Shown: positions 4,656-63,815 of the stretch, one piece after another
Layout of the letters: each line of letters opens with the position of its first letter
How positions within the stretch are numbered: the stretch's first letter is position 1
DNA from: Intrasporangiaceae bacterium URHB0013
GTDB taxonomy: Bacteria > Actinomycetota > Actinomycetes > Actinomycetales > Dermatophilaceae
Direction of reading: 5' to 3'
Length of the DNA: 64,000 nt
NCBI GenBank assembly: GCA_000620545.1
Contig: JIBA01000017.1
Location: forward strand, 1 to 64,000
Position numbers and translations under genes: made by a program
Notes under the pieces: generated by a model
Told to the model about the DNA's origin: nothing
Database searches by the model: none
What the model saw: the letters and a program-made list of their open reading frames with translations, nothing else

Positions 4656-5141
4656 TCAGTCTCGCGTGCCGGCCAGCGACTGGAGGCGTTCGGCCACCGC
4701 GACAGCCTGCTCCACGCTCCCGGTGACGAGCAGGATCGTGTCGTCGCCCGCGATCGTGCCGACCACCTCGGGGTCGCGAGTCTGGTCGATGGCCGACGCG
4801 AGGTAGTTGGCCGCGCCCGGCGGGGTGCGGAGGACGACGAGGTTGACGGCGGCCGCGGCTGACACGAGCAGCTCCTCGCACGTGCGTCGCAGACGCGCCG
4901 AGGCTGCGTCTCCGATGGAGCCGACGGCGGCCACCTCACCGCCCTCTCCCGGGACGGCATACACCAGCGAGCGACCGCGCCTGACCTTGACGGCGCCGAG
5001 CTCGACGAGGTCACGGGACAGGGTCGCCTGCGTCACCTCGGTGCCCTCGGCGACGAGCAGGTCCGACAGCTCGCCCTGGCTGTGCACCGCATGGCTCCCG
5101 AGCAGCTCGACGATGCGGCGCTGGCGCTGGGTGCGGCTCAC
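4656..5141 (-). CDS. argR: Arginine repressor ArgR
   Basis: This arginine-sensing transcriptional repressor and hexameric DNA-binding protein has 161 residues. The N-terminal winged helix includes the recognition segment TQATLSRDL (37-45), and the C-terminal oligomerisation and arginine-binding core has [10 protein letters not shown] (128-137). The GTG start overlaps the argD stop by four bases (GTGA), so translation is probably coupled. Its likely operator is the pair of ARG boxes at 9766-9799, in front of the operon that also encodes ArgR, which implies autoregulation. Confidence 0.97.
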
Positions 5142-6331
5142 GGGACCATCTGCTCTGCGGAACGGGCGACCTCGAGGATCGCCGGCAGCGCATCGAGGAA
5201 ACCGTGCAGCTCCTCCTCGGTGATGACGAGCGGCGGTGCGAGACGCAGCGCCGTCGGGGTCACGGCGTTGACGATGAACCCAGCGTCGCGGGCGGCCACC
5301 ATGACGGCCGCCGACGGTATGCCGTCCAGTTCGACCGCGCGCAGCAGCCCGCGCCCACGGGTGCCGGCCACTCCCTCGATCTCGACGTCGTCGAGCAGCG
5401 CAGCGACGCGGCCCACGTGCTCGAGCAGGTGGTCACGTTCGATGGTGTCGAGCACCGCCAGCCCGGCCGCACACGCGAGCGGGTTGCCCCCGAAGGTCGT
5501 CCCGTGCTGACCGGCCGTGAGCATCGCCGTCACGTCGGAGCCGTACGTGACGAGGGCGCCGATCGGCACGCCGCCGCCCAGTCCCTTGGCGAGGGTCATG
5601 GCGTCCGGCACGATGCCCGAGGCCTGGTGCGCGAACCAGTCACCGGTGCGGCCGACGCCCGTCTGGATCTCGTCGACGACGAGGAGGGCGCCGTGCGCGG
5701 AGGTCAGGGCGCGGGCGAGCCGCAGGTAGTCGCCAGACAGCTCCCGGACGCCGGCCTCGCCCTGCACCGGCTCGACGAAGAGCGCGGCGGTCGTATCGTC
5801 GACGGCGTCCACCAGGGCCTCGGCGTCGTCGGGTGCGACGAAGACGACCTCGGGTATCAGCGGCTCGAACGGCTCGCGGTAGGCGGCCTTGTGGGTCAGA
5901 GCGAGCGCCCCGGTGGACCGTCCGTGGAAGGAGCCCTCCAGCGCCACGATGCGGGTGCGCCCGGTGCGCCGCGAGAGCTTGATCGCAGCCTCGGTCGCCT
6001 CCGTGCCGGAGTTGGCGAAGAAGACGCCGGACCCCTCGGGTGCGCCCGCCACGGCGAGGATGCGCTCGGCGAGGGCGATGGCCGGCTCGGACGTGAAGAA
6101 GTTCGAGACGTGGATGGCCGACTCGGCCTGCTTCGTCACGGCCTGCACGAGCGCCGGGTGCCCGTGGCCGAGGGCGTTCACGGCGATGCCCGAGAGCAGG
6201 TCGAGGTAGCGCTTGCCGTCGACGTCGGTGACCCAGCACCCGTGCCCGGACGCGAGGACGAGCTGCGGCGTGCCGAAGACCTGGACCATAGAGCCGGCGT
6301 ATCGGCCGAGCAGGTCGCTTCCCGTGGTCAT
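5138..6331 (-). CDS. argD: Acetylornithine aminotransferase
   Basis: This PLP-dependent class III aminotransferase makes N-acetylornithine from N-acetylglutamate semialdehyde. The 397 residues include the cofactor-phosphate loop [12 protein letters not shown] (about 108-119), the PLP Asp in VVDEIQTG (220) and the Schiff-base lysine in LAKGLGGG (K249). The ATG at 6331 overlaps the argB stop by four bases (ATGA) and has GGAGG eight bases upstream. It contains GACGGCATAC, an instance of the dispersed octamer that forces a rare ATA codon. Confidence 0.97.
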
Positions 6332-61318: not shown

Positions 61319-62400
61319 TGGGACCCCACCACCCACTCGGCGTAGAAGACGCCGAGGCCGAAGGCGACGAAGAGCCCGGCGATGATCCAGAAGCGCACCA
61401 CGACGGTCACCTCGTTCCACCCGACCATCTCGAAGTGGTGGTGGAGCGGTGCCATCCTCAGCACCCGTTTGCCGGTGGTCTTGAACGACGCGACCTGCGC
61501 GACGACCGACAGCGTCTCGAGGACGAACATGCCGCCGAGGATGATGAGGAGCAGCTCGGTGTGGGTCGCGATGGCCAGGCCGGCGAGAGCGCCCCCGAGG
61601 GCGAGGGACCCGGTGTCGCCCATGAAGATCTTCGCGGGCGTCGCGTTCCACCAGAGGAACCCGAAGCACGCCCCCATGCCCGCCGCGGCGACGAGGGCGA
61701 GGTCGTGCGAGTCCCGCACCTCGTAGCACTTGATGCCCGGGTTGGTCTGGCAGTTCTGGTTGAAGGTCCAGATGCTGATGAGGACGTAGGCGCCGAACAC
61801 CATCGTCGAGACGCCGGTCGCGAGACCGTCGAGGCCGTCGGTGAGGTTCACACCGTTGGACGCACCCGCGATCATGACGTTGGCGAAGATGACGAAGAGG
61901 GCCACCCCGATGACGGTGCTGCCGCCGAGCGCCAGGCTGATGTTGGTGTCACGCACGAACGACACGAGGAGCGACGCGGGCGTGCGGAACTGCTCGTTGG
62001 GGAACTGCAGTGCGAGCCCTGCGAAGGTGATGCCCACGAGGGCCTGCCCGAGGAGCTTCTGCTTCGAGCGGAGGCCGAGGCTGCGTTGCTTGCTGATCTT
62101 GATGAAGTCGTCGAGGAACCCGACGAAGCCGAGGCCCGCCATGAGGAACAGCACGAGCAACCCGCTGGCGGTCGGCGGGTTGAGCGTCAGCAGGTGCGCC
62201 AGGAAGTAGGCGCCGAGCGTCGCCGCGAGGATGACGGCGCCACCCATGGTCGGAGTGCCGCGCTTCGTGTGGTGCGAGGTGGGACCGTCGTCGCGGATGA
62301 ACTGGCCGTAGCCGCGCTTGACGAGGAACTTGATGAACAGCGGGGTGCCGAACAACGAGATGAGCAGCGAGATCGACGCCGCGAGCAGGACACCCTTCAC
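61315..62400 (-). CDS. mraY: Phospho-MurNAc-pentapeptide transferase
   Basis: MraY makes lipid I. The 361-residue, 10-helix protein has [24 protein letters not shown] and the catalytic region [14 protein letters not shown]; the histidine motif MAPLHHHFE is present. GTG at 62400 overlaps the murF stop (GTGA). Confidence 0.98.
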
Positions 62401-63815
62401 CGCGAGACCGCCTCTCCGGAGGTGGCCGCGGGTGTCGCGGTGACCGAGCGACCCTCGGCCGCCAGACGGTCGCCGAGCCAGCGCAGGCCGCTGTCCCGGC
62501 TCGACTTCAGCAGGACCACGTCGCCGGCACGCACGCGGGCGACGAGCAGGTCGTGGGCGGCGTCGGTGTCGGGCACCCACTCGGAGCCGGGGAACGCCTC
62601 GGCGAGCGGGCGGGCACCCTCGCCGACGGCGACGACGTGGTCGAAGCCGAGCGAGGCGGCATACGACCCCACGGCCCCGTGCTCGGCATCGCTGTCCGGG
62701 CCGAGCTCGAGCATGCCGCCGAGGACAGCCCAACGCTCCCCCGCCACGTGCATGGCCGCGACGGCGTCCAACGCGGCCCGCATGGAGTCAGGGTTGGCGT
62801 TGTAGGCGTCGTTGACGACGACGACGCCGTCCTGCCGGTCGGTGATCTCCATGCGCCAACGGCTCACCGCCTCGGCGGCGCCGAGGCCGGCCACGACCTG
62901 GTCGAGCGACAGACCGAGCTCGAGGGCCGCGGCGGCGACGGCCAGCGAGTTGCCGACATGATGGGCGCCGCTCTGCCGCAAGGAGACGCGGGCGCTGCCC
63001 TGCGGGCAGACGAGGGTGTATGCCGCCCTGCCGCGCTCGTCGAGCGTGACCGCCTCGGCACGCACGTCCGACTCGGCCGAGCGCCCGACGAGCTGGACCC
63101 GCGACGCCAGACCGGAGGCCATCGCGGCGACGGTGGGGTCATCGGCGTTGAGGATCGACAGGCCCTCGGCAGGTACCGCCAACGGCAGCTCGACCTTGGC
63201 GCGGGCGATGTTCTCGCGCGAGCCGAACTCGCCGATGTGGGCCGTGCCGACGTTGAGCACGATCGCGACCTGGGGTGGTGCGATGCGGGTGAGGTAGTCG
63301 ATGTGCCCGATGCCGCGGGCGCCCATCTCGACGACGAGGAAGCGGGTGGTGGGCGTGACCCGGCAGACCGTCAGCGGCACACCGATCTCACCGTTCAAGG
63401 AGTTGACCGGCGCGACCGTCTCGGCGACCGAGGACAGCACGGAGGCGAGGAGGTCCTTGACGCTGGTCTTGCCCGACGAGCCCGTGATGCCCACGACCCG
63501 CAGCTCCGGGGCGCGGTCCACGACTCCGCGCGCCACGCGGCCGAAGGCGGACTGGACGTCCTCGACGACGACGCACGGCACCCCGTCGACGGGCCTCGAT
63601 GTGAGGGCCGCGACGGCTCCGGCAGCAGCGGCCGACGCGACGAAGTCGTGCCCGTCGGCGGTCTCGCCGACACGTGCGACGTACAGTCCGCCGGGCCCGC
63701 ACTCGCGCGAGTCGGTGGTCACCGGGCCGTCGACGACGACGGCCTCAGGCCTGTCGGTGCCGTGGACGGTGCCATCGGTGAGGTCACGGATCTCACTGAG
63801 CGACAAGGCGATCAC
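62397..63815 (-). CDS. murF: UDP-MurNAc-tripeptide D-alanyl-D-alanine ligase
   Basis: MurF adds D-Ala-D-Ala to the precursor. The 472 residues include [18 protein letters not shown] (ATP loop), [14 protein letters not shown] and [21 protein letters not shown] at 63815 overlaps the murE stop (GTGA). Confidence 0.97.

Follow-up and report, generated by a model that had tools for sequence, protein, structure and literature searches.

An over-represented octamer as a putative DNA-uptake sequence in Terrabacter and other Dermatophilaceae

Why does a single octamer recur, in both orientations and in several reading frames, along a stretch of actinobacterial DNA? The stretch in question comprises positions 1 to 64,000 of contig JIBA01000017.1 (assembly GCA_000620545.1, Intrasporangiaceae bacterium URHB0013) and is called the window below; the octamer is CGGCATAC, with 24 exact copies between 4955 and 63025, 14 on the forward and 10 on the reverse strand. 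We propose that CGGCATAC is a putative DNA-uptake (self-recognition) sequence of Terrabacter and many other Dermatophilaceae/Intrasporangiaceae, a reading to which we give a probability of about 0.6.

Abundance and selection on the DNA word

The 24 copies in the window compare with a mean of 0.63 and a maximum of 3 in 100 dinucleotide-preserving shuffles; the original prediction had the count and both orientations right and understated the excess. When the words of the window are ranked by a third-order Markov model, each of the top five 8-mers overlaps CGGCATAC, as does each of the top four 9-mers and 10-mers. The whole genome (17 contigs, 4,567,713 bases) contains 1,988 copies (1,011 forward and 977 reverse), i.e. 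one per 2.3 kb or 435 per Mb, and the density is lower in its low-GC bins. The same word read backwards occurs 248 times (135 + 113), a number probably raised by the 3' flank of CGGCATAC itself. In a 461-kb sample of the genome (the window and parts of contigs C1–C6), we found 177 copies where 10.9 are expected (Markov-3), which puts the counts far above the Markov expectation. The nine genomes of the genus contain from 1,423 (in one that is 74% complete) to 2,358 copies.

Within the 461-kb sample, the base preceding the word is A in 47% and G in 37% of the copies, and the base following it is G in 59%. The word itself is strict: 12 of its 24 single-mismatch forms do not exceed their expectation and the rest remain below twice theirs, the largest surplus being that of CGGCATCC (95 versus 54 expected). 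A strict eight-base word of this kind would suit a methylation, restriction or HIP1-like site, which would accumulate if its modification were useful. Against this, CGGCATAC differs from its own complement, i.e. it is not palindromic, whereas HIP1 of cyanobacteria is a palindromic octamer; restriction sites are usually avoided in genomes; and the orientation-dependent spacing described below would be left unexplained. We consider this explanation highly improbable.

According to our own simple gene caller (used for both the window and the 461-kb sample), 131 of the 177 copies are inside genes, in several frames and in both orientations, and 46 are outside called genes (26% of the copies in 15.7% of the DNA; one copy overlaps a gene end). 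Between genes, the density of CGGCATAC is 1.54 per kb in convergent, 0.60 in tandem and 0.33 in divergent gaps. The most frequent coding frame reads Tyr-Ala (73 of the 131 coding copies), as would be expected if codon, codon-pair or mutational bias made the word. Synonymous-codon shuffling within genes (n = 30), however, yields only 12.4 coding copies (SD 3.3, maximum 19), and ATA makes up 14 of the 74 Ile codons at word-fitting sites, as against 18 of 4,344 at other Ile positions. Because of these two results and the copies outside called genes, we rejected codon bias as the source of CGGCATAC and leave it virtually no chance. Other rare codons are favoured at word sites as well: TAT is found at 73 of 101 word-fitting G-TAY-GCC-G (Tyr-Ala) sites, compared with 143 of the 2,393 Tyr codons elsewhere, and GCA at 32 of 87 word-fitting sites versus 1,045 of 16,641 elsewhere. 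That selection acts on the DNA word and overrides codon choice, as the original prediction had argued, is thus strongly supported, and with coding copies in several frames no single codon pair in one frame accounts for them.

The sites are also conserved within the genus. We compared the part of the window from 30 to 64 kb with seven Terrabacter genomes and three named Terrabacter loci. The word was identical in 62 of the 80 comparisons in which its site was aligned, as against 38% for random 8-bp windows; another 160 comparisons gave no alignment. The same sites enter more than one comparison, and the figures are not independent of one another. Control words were conserved in place in 12 of 29 (CGGCGTAC), 4 of 18 (CGGCAGAC), 0 of 28 (CGGCACAC) and 0 of 5 comparisons (reversed word), and CG[ACT]CATAC in 7 of 9.

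Distribution, dialects and the Tad-C genes

The Tad-C ATPase (see below) of this genome is 95–96% identical to that of three named Terrabacter strains; judged by sequence, the host genus is Terrabacter. For a survey of the family, we counted CGGCATAC and two variants in 186 genomes of 53 genera (labels: G, genomes; g, genera; f, families; L, loci), and called a genus word-rich if its best genome had at least 200 CGGCATAC or at least 500 CGGCATCC per Mb, using rounded genome sizes. By this definition, which leaves a clean gap, 32 genera are word-rich (lowest values 277 CGGCATAC and 763 CGGCATCC per Mb) and 18 are word-free (highest values 41 and 382); the remaining three (g20, g21 and g51, with up to about 102 per Mb) are in between and were set aside. 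Three word-rich genera (g26, g52 and g69) have a word-free member. One genome (G065), which shares identical TadA and TadB with Arsenicicoccus piscis, has 37 copies where its four congeners have 1,251–1,660.

The word also has dialects. Seven genomes of g17, g54 and g27 contain 2,099–4,480 copies of CGGCATCC, which takes the place of CGGCATAC in g17, g27 and two of the four g54 genomes; the remaining two have both words (about 1,200 and 2,100–2,200 copies). In g28 and G011 we found a relaxed form, CGNCATAC, in which the third base is free: CGHCATAC occurs 3,273–5,477 times in g28 and 3,747 times in G011, versus 36–106 times in eight Terrabacter genomes that are at least 99% complete. The density of CGNCATAC in G011 is about 1,600 per Mb, and 48 kb of this genome contain 90 CGNCATAC versus 101 CATAC. 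The dialects track lineages: on a TadA+TadB tree of 91 loci the four word states require 22 changes (34.9 when shuffled), and word versus none requires 12; 14 rows are stateless, and the states, read from about 20 kb per locus or less, are noisy (G034 was misread as none, and its whole genome has 3,949 CGGCATCC).

Such changes of word from one genus to another, and its loss inside others, are hardly what one would expect of a housekeeping architectural protein, and they count against the possibility that CGGCATAC is a nucleoid-protein, terminator or chromosome-organising site. The enrichment between convergent genes and the few hairpin-forming inverted pairs fit a site of this type, but most sampled copies are genic and there is no replication polarity; we regard it as very unlikely. 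The original prediction had offered an uptake word, a methylation or restriction site, and a nucleoid-protein site. The uptake word fits best, given the patchy presence, the dialects, the depletion in interrupting DNA and the Tad link; beyond the points mentioned above, nothing was found in favour of the other two, and methyltransferases and binding proteins were not searched for.

Outside the family, the 386 genomes in our class sample of 394 have at most about 52 CGGCATAC per Mb (judged by eye, with rounded sizes), and the exact word is restricted to the family in the sampled genomes. A second family of the same order (f19) has a related word, AGGCATCC, found 1,496 times in G055 (16 times reversed), 1,387 times in G640, and 18–637 times in the other 118 genomes. 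The hyperabundant f19 word, in the form CG[AC]GGCATCCG (for example in G055 and G640), is likewise patchy across genera. One genome of another family (G497, f45) has 170 CGGCATAC in 3.8 Mb versus 27 reversed, with 8 to 57 in the other genomes of that family in the class sample. In G028 (L085 and L086), CGCATACC occurs 14 times in 40 kb (1.1 expected) and is likely a further dialect; AATCCCGC, GGATTGCA and similar words, found 8–9 times in 40 kb of G036 (L203 and L204), are perhaps a repeat array. CGNCGTAC words were tried as a dialect of the word-free genera and rejected: they are present outside the family and fit the ordinary codon pairs TAC GCC and TAC GAC, and were therefore left uncounted. 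Other words in the word-free genera (G009, G014, G017 and G018) were judged unconvincing.

Which genes could read such a word? In Micrococcus luteus, transformation requires two Tad clusters, beside comEA and comEC (PMC4322843). Using Pfam, we identified in Terrabacter three T2SSE ATPases, ComEA (SLBB + HHH_3) and ComEC (Competence). The Tad operon that adjoins prfB-ftsEX (G000:C1:83378-88242), which we call Tad-C, encodes TadA (T2SSE), TadB and TadC (two T2SSF), a 71-residue protein, TadE, a 167-residue protein and a TadE/G-like protein; the 71- and 167-residue proteins have no Pfam match. The Tad-C ATPase has no orthologue (paralogue-level matches or none) in g7, g14, g15, g50, g55 and g64, all of which are word-free. 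With split copies counted as present, all 32 word-rich genera have the gene and 6 of the 18 word-free genera lack it (Fisher P 0.0012, over the 186 genomes, with genera coded by hand and phylogeny ignored by the test). The word-free G133 has no intact Tad-C ATPase; in two word-rich genera (g8 and g22) only split copies were seen, and the word-rich G138 and G205, which are 73% and 68% complete, gave no orthologous match. In our reading, the word requires competence, but competence alone does not suffice for it.

Other genes did not discriminate. General Tad ATPase presence (PF00437, 57 of 58 genomes) and ComEA presence (PF12836, 58 of 58) were uninformative. An apparent gap of ComEA in lower-GC relatives turned out to be misses by our gene caller; tblastn finds ComEA in all six relatives compared (43–62% identical over the matched part), and ComEA was therefore dropped as a discriminating gene. 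The Tad-C minor pilins adjoin tadC in loci of both word-rich and word-free kinds; five loci with an interrupted or rearranged operon (L103, L110, L144, L197 and L199) lack them there, as does L158, which ends too early to tell.

The Tad-C ATPase gene is also a recurrent insertion target. Among 23 genomes picked for partial or doubtful matches, 12 (G001, G005, G006, G015, G064, G118, G123, G159, G175, G183, G195 and G199) have tadA-C in two pieces on one contig, and G147, with a weak 5' match, is a doubtful 13th. The pieces are 4–79 kb apart, and the gene is split at several points. The sole insert that was read, in G001 (L179:10907-19472), encodes a serine integrase and a phage major head protein; in Intrasporangium chromatireducens (L110) a shortened tadC is followed by an integrase and a phage-type primase. 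We counted the word in the interrupting DNA of four word-rich hosts (L179, L103, L110 and L197, the last scored for CGGCATCC; two word-free hosts were excluded) and found 1 copy in 27.6 kb, where the flanks have 21 in 49.5 kb (P 1e-4). The test is small and post hoc, and mobility of the interrupting DNA is shown for two of the four hosts but not for L103 and L197. Prophages and islands are known to insert in the competence genes comK, comYC, comM, comFA and comEC, a strategy of mobile elements (PMC4774983). The case here is alike in that an integrase-bearing element splits a gene of a kind required for transformation, and different in that the target is the Tad-C ATPase gene (and apparently tadC), which is not among the targets in the available part of that paper.

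Orientation and spacing of the copies

In seven contig stretches, the forward/reverse counts of CGGCATAC are 36/47, 11/14, 11/6, 12/8, 3/3, 1/1 and 14/10, and we saw no replication polarity within these stretches, which cover about a tenth of the genome. Orientation matters at a shorter range. For 593 copies over 1.18 Mb (our own sample and 37 hand-picked word-rich loci), only 60 same-orientation pairs are 20–1,000 bp apart versus 153 expected (z -7.8), while opposite-orientation pairs number 185 versus 165 expected. With near relatives removed (22 loci and our own sample, 449 copies), there are 55 same-orientation pairs versus 98.7 expected (z -6.3), and when strands were permuted on the fixed positions, 0 of 2,000 permutations reached as low as 55. 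Our own sample alone has 13 versus 33. None of eleven control words is depleted in this way, and several of them cluster, although some have only a handful of pairs. Copies of like orientation thus keep their distance while those of opposite orientation do not, which suggests that a copy acts one way, over a range of roughly 1 kb. The original prediction had taken the similar strand counts to mean a non-polar word, which is only half right: it holds for replication but, as it seems, not at this short range. General even spacing is absent from the 461-kb sample (coefficient of variation 0.92 versus 0.99 for random positions), and close pairs are not commoner than chance (6 gaps below 100 bp versus 6.7 expected).

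Directional spacing fits either a site of one-way import or processing or a Chi-like recombination signal, at which a helicase-nuclease of the RecBCD/AdnAB type, reading one orientation, would switch from degradation to recombination. Copies would then be required independently on each strand, which would explain the spacing: the same-orientation deficit within 1 kb suits a tracking enzyme. Like Chi (RecBCD/AddAB), CGGCATAC is an overrepresented non-palindromic octamer whose action appears to depend on direction, and both the site conservation and the depletion in interrupting DNA are equally expected of Chi. Several differences make this explanation, the main rival of an uptake word, unlikely in our judgement. 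Chi is polarised along replication (PMC8022716), as we see in five 50-kb stretches of E. coli (13/5, 9/6, 2/10, 1/8 and 11/4), whereas the strands of CGGCATAC are mixed. E. coli Chi shows no same-orientation deficit (14 same and 15 opposite neighbours within 2 kb, a small sample). The density and the fast turnover are unlike Chi, as seen in the abundance of CGNCATAC in G011 and the near-absence of the word from a sister species. Finally, a Chi-like signal gives no reason for the link with the Tad ATPase.

A DNA-uptake word and its meaning

If CGGCATAC is an uptake sequence, its receptor on free DNA would be either ComEA or a part of the Tad (Flp) competence pilus exposed at the surface, and word-bearing DNA, mostly derived from kin, would enter through ComEC and then recombine. 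Such biased uptake (molecular drive) would let copies accumulate; a shift in the preference of the receptor would shift the word and give rise to dialects, and where competence is lost, the word would decay. The bound word may start import or processing one way, so that each strand would need its own series of copies. We propose one-way import on account of the orientation-dependent spacing over about 1 kb.

Known uptake sequences resemble CGGCATAC in many respects. In Neisseriaceae, the type IV minor pilin ComP reads the DNA uptake sequence (DUS), which is likewise a short non-palindromic word with hundreds to thousands of copies, on both strands, genic and intergenic, and with fewer copies in acquired DNA; its single-base dialects also track lineages (PMC3630211). 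It differs in that here the phylum and the word are unrelated, the pilus would be Tad/Flp instead of type IVa, the spacing depends on orientation, and close inverted pairs are rare in our own sample. The uptake signal sequence (USS) of Pasteurellaceae is of the same order of abundance, lacks replication polarity and exists in two or more versions. Transformation by Flp/Tad in Micrococcus luteus shares the Tad clusters and the ComEA/ComEC locus, and the available parts of the two papers on it mention no uptake sequence (PMC4322843, PMC6370729).

Several observations weigh against an uptake sequence. The control word CGGCATGC is conserved in place in 19 of 28 comparisons, close to CGGCATAC itself. 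Twelve of the 18 word-free genera retain the Tad-C ATPase, so its presence does not predict the word, and several word-rich genomes have only remnants (G154 and G160) or one piece (G025, G117 and G157) of it. Among the Tad-C minor pilins and ComEA, no difference is visible between word-rich and word-free relatives. The same-orientation effect is not clear in CGGCATCC hosts (161 copies) or G011 (90 copies). Uptake of the USS in H. influenzae is reported to be independent of orientation (PMC1939737), which makes the repulsion of same-orientation copies here a difference. Only 6 neighbour pairs in the 461-kb sample are within 60 bp (5 of them inverted), and the terminator habit known from DUS therefore looks weak here. 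The limits of the Fisher test and of the insert test, given above, count in the same direction.

In the window, 19 copies are in genes, in three gene-relative frames, and five are intergenic (Table 1). A large protein in the 10.2 kb free of CGGCATAC (33777-43934), which also cover a DNA polymerase III alpha gene, is encoded at 34574-38011 on the reverse strand; with lamin-tail, Ig-like, PKD and endonuclease/exonuclease/phosphatase domains, it is probably a secreted nuclease. Secreted DNases had been taken as a hint of DNA uptake or scavenging, and this probable nuclease gives no evidence for it. Elsewhere in the genome (G000:C2:18399-19041), ten copies of the palindrome CCACTCGAGTGG, 62–95 bp apart, lie in a single intergenic gap upstream of a gene.

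Table 1. Exact copies of the octamer in the window
Word	Position	Strand	Context
CGGCATAC	4955..4962	+	in gene, TAT GCC frame
CGGCATAC	5317..5324	-	in gene, GGC ATA frame
CGGCATAC	9412..9419	+	in gene, TAT GCC frame
CGGCATAC	10451..10458	+	in gene, TAT GCC frame
CGGCATAC	11073..11080	-	in gene, GCA TAC frame
CGGCATAC	13833..13840	-	in gene, GGC ATA frame
CGGCATAC	17189..17196	-	intergenic, tandem genes
CGGCATAC	18838..18845	+	intergenic, divergent genes
CGGCATAC	21633..21640	-	in gene, GCA TAC frame
CGGCATAC	22353..22360	+	in gene, TAT GCC frame
CGGCATAC	26062..26069	-	intergenic, tandem genes
CGGCATAC	26834..26841	+	in gene, TAT GCC frame
CGGCATAC	28830..28837	-	in gene, GCA TAC frame
CGGCATAC	29401..29408	+	in gene, TAT GCC frame
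CGGCATAC	29863..29870	+	in gene, TAT GCC frame
CGGCATAC	33595..33602	+	in gene, TAT GCC frame
CGGCATAC	33769..33776	+	in gene, TAT GCC frame
CGGCATAC	43935..43942	-	intergenic, divergent genes
CGGCATAC	46323..46330	+	intergenic, convergent genes
CGGCATAC	52038..52045	-	in gene, GGC ATA frame
CGGCATAC	53285..53292	+	in gene, TAT GCC frame
CGGCATAC	57750..57757	+	in gene, TAT GCC frame
CGGCATAC	62657..62664	+	in gene, TAT GCC frame
CGGCATAC	63018..63025	-	in gene, GCA TAC frame

A published account confines the need for uptake sequences to Neisseria species and the Pasteurellaceae (PMC3630211), and a literature search that covered few subscription papers found no actinobacterial uptake sequence; the octamer itself occurs in the available part of one paper on another bacterium. 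More tentatively, CGGCATAC and its relatives could be a third, independently evolved uptake code, the first in Gram-positives, which would be read by a Tad/Flp competence pilus and be strand-directional (about 1 kb on one side). Its dialects would evolve fast in two or more actinobacterial families, and mobile elements would disable it by integrating in the pilus ATPase gene; we consider this wider claim possible rather than probable.

If an actinobacterial code of this kind exists, uptake codes evolve repeatedly, here by way of a different pilus, and the many genera, dialects and losses would offer a system in which to follow how a receptor and thousands of its sites change together. It would also explain kin-restricted genetic exchange in these bacteria. 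The orientation-dependent spacing is a testable clue to import from the bound site, and adding the word to donor DNA may render these strains transformable.

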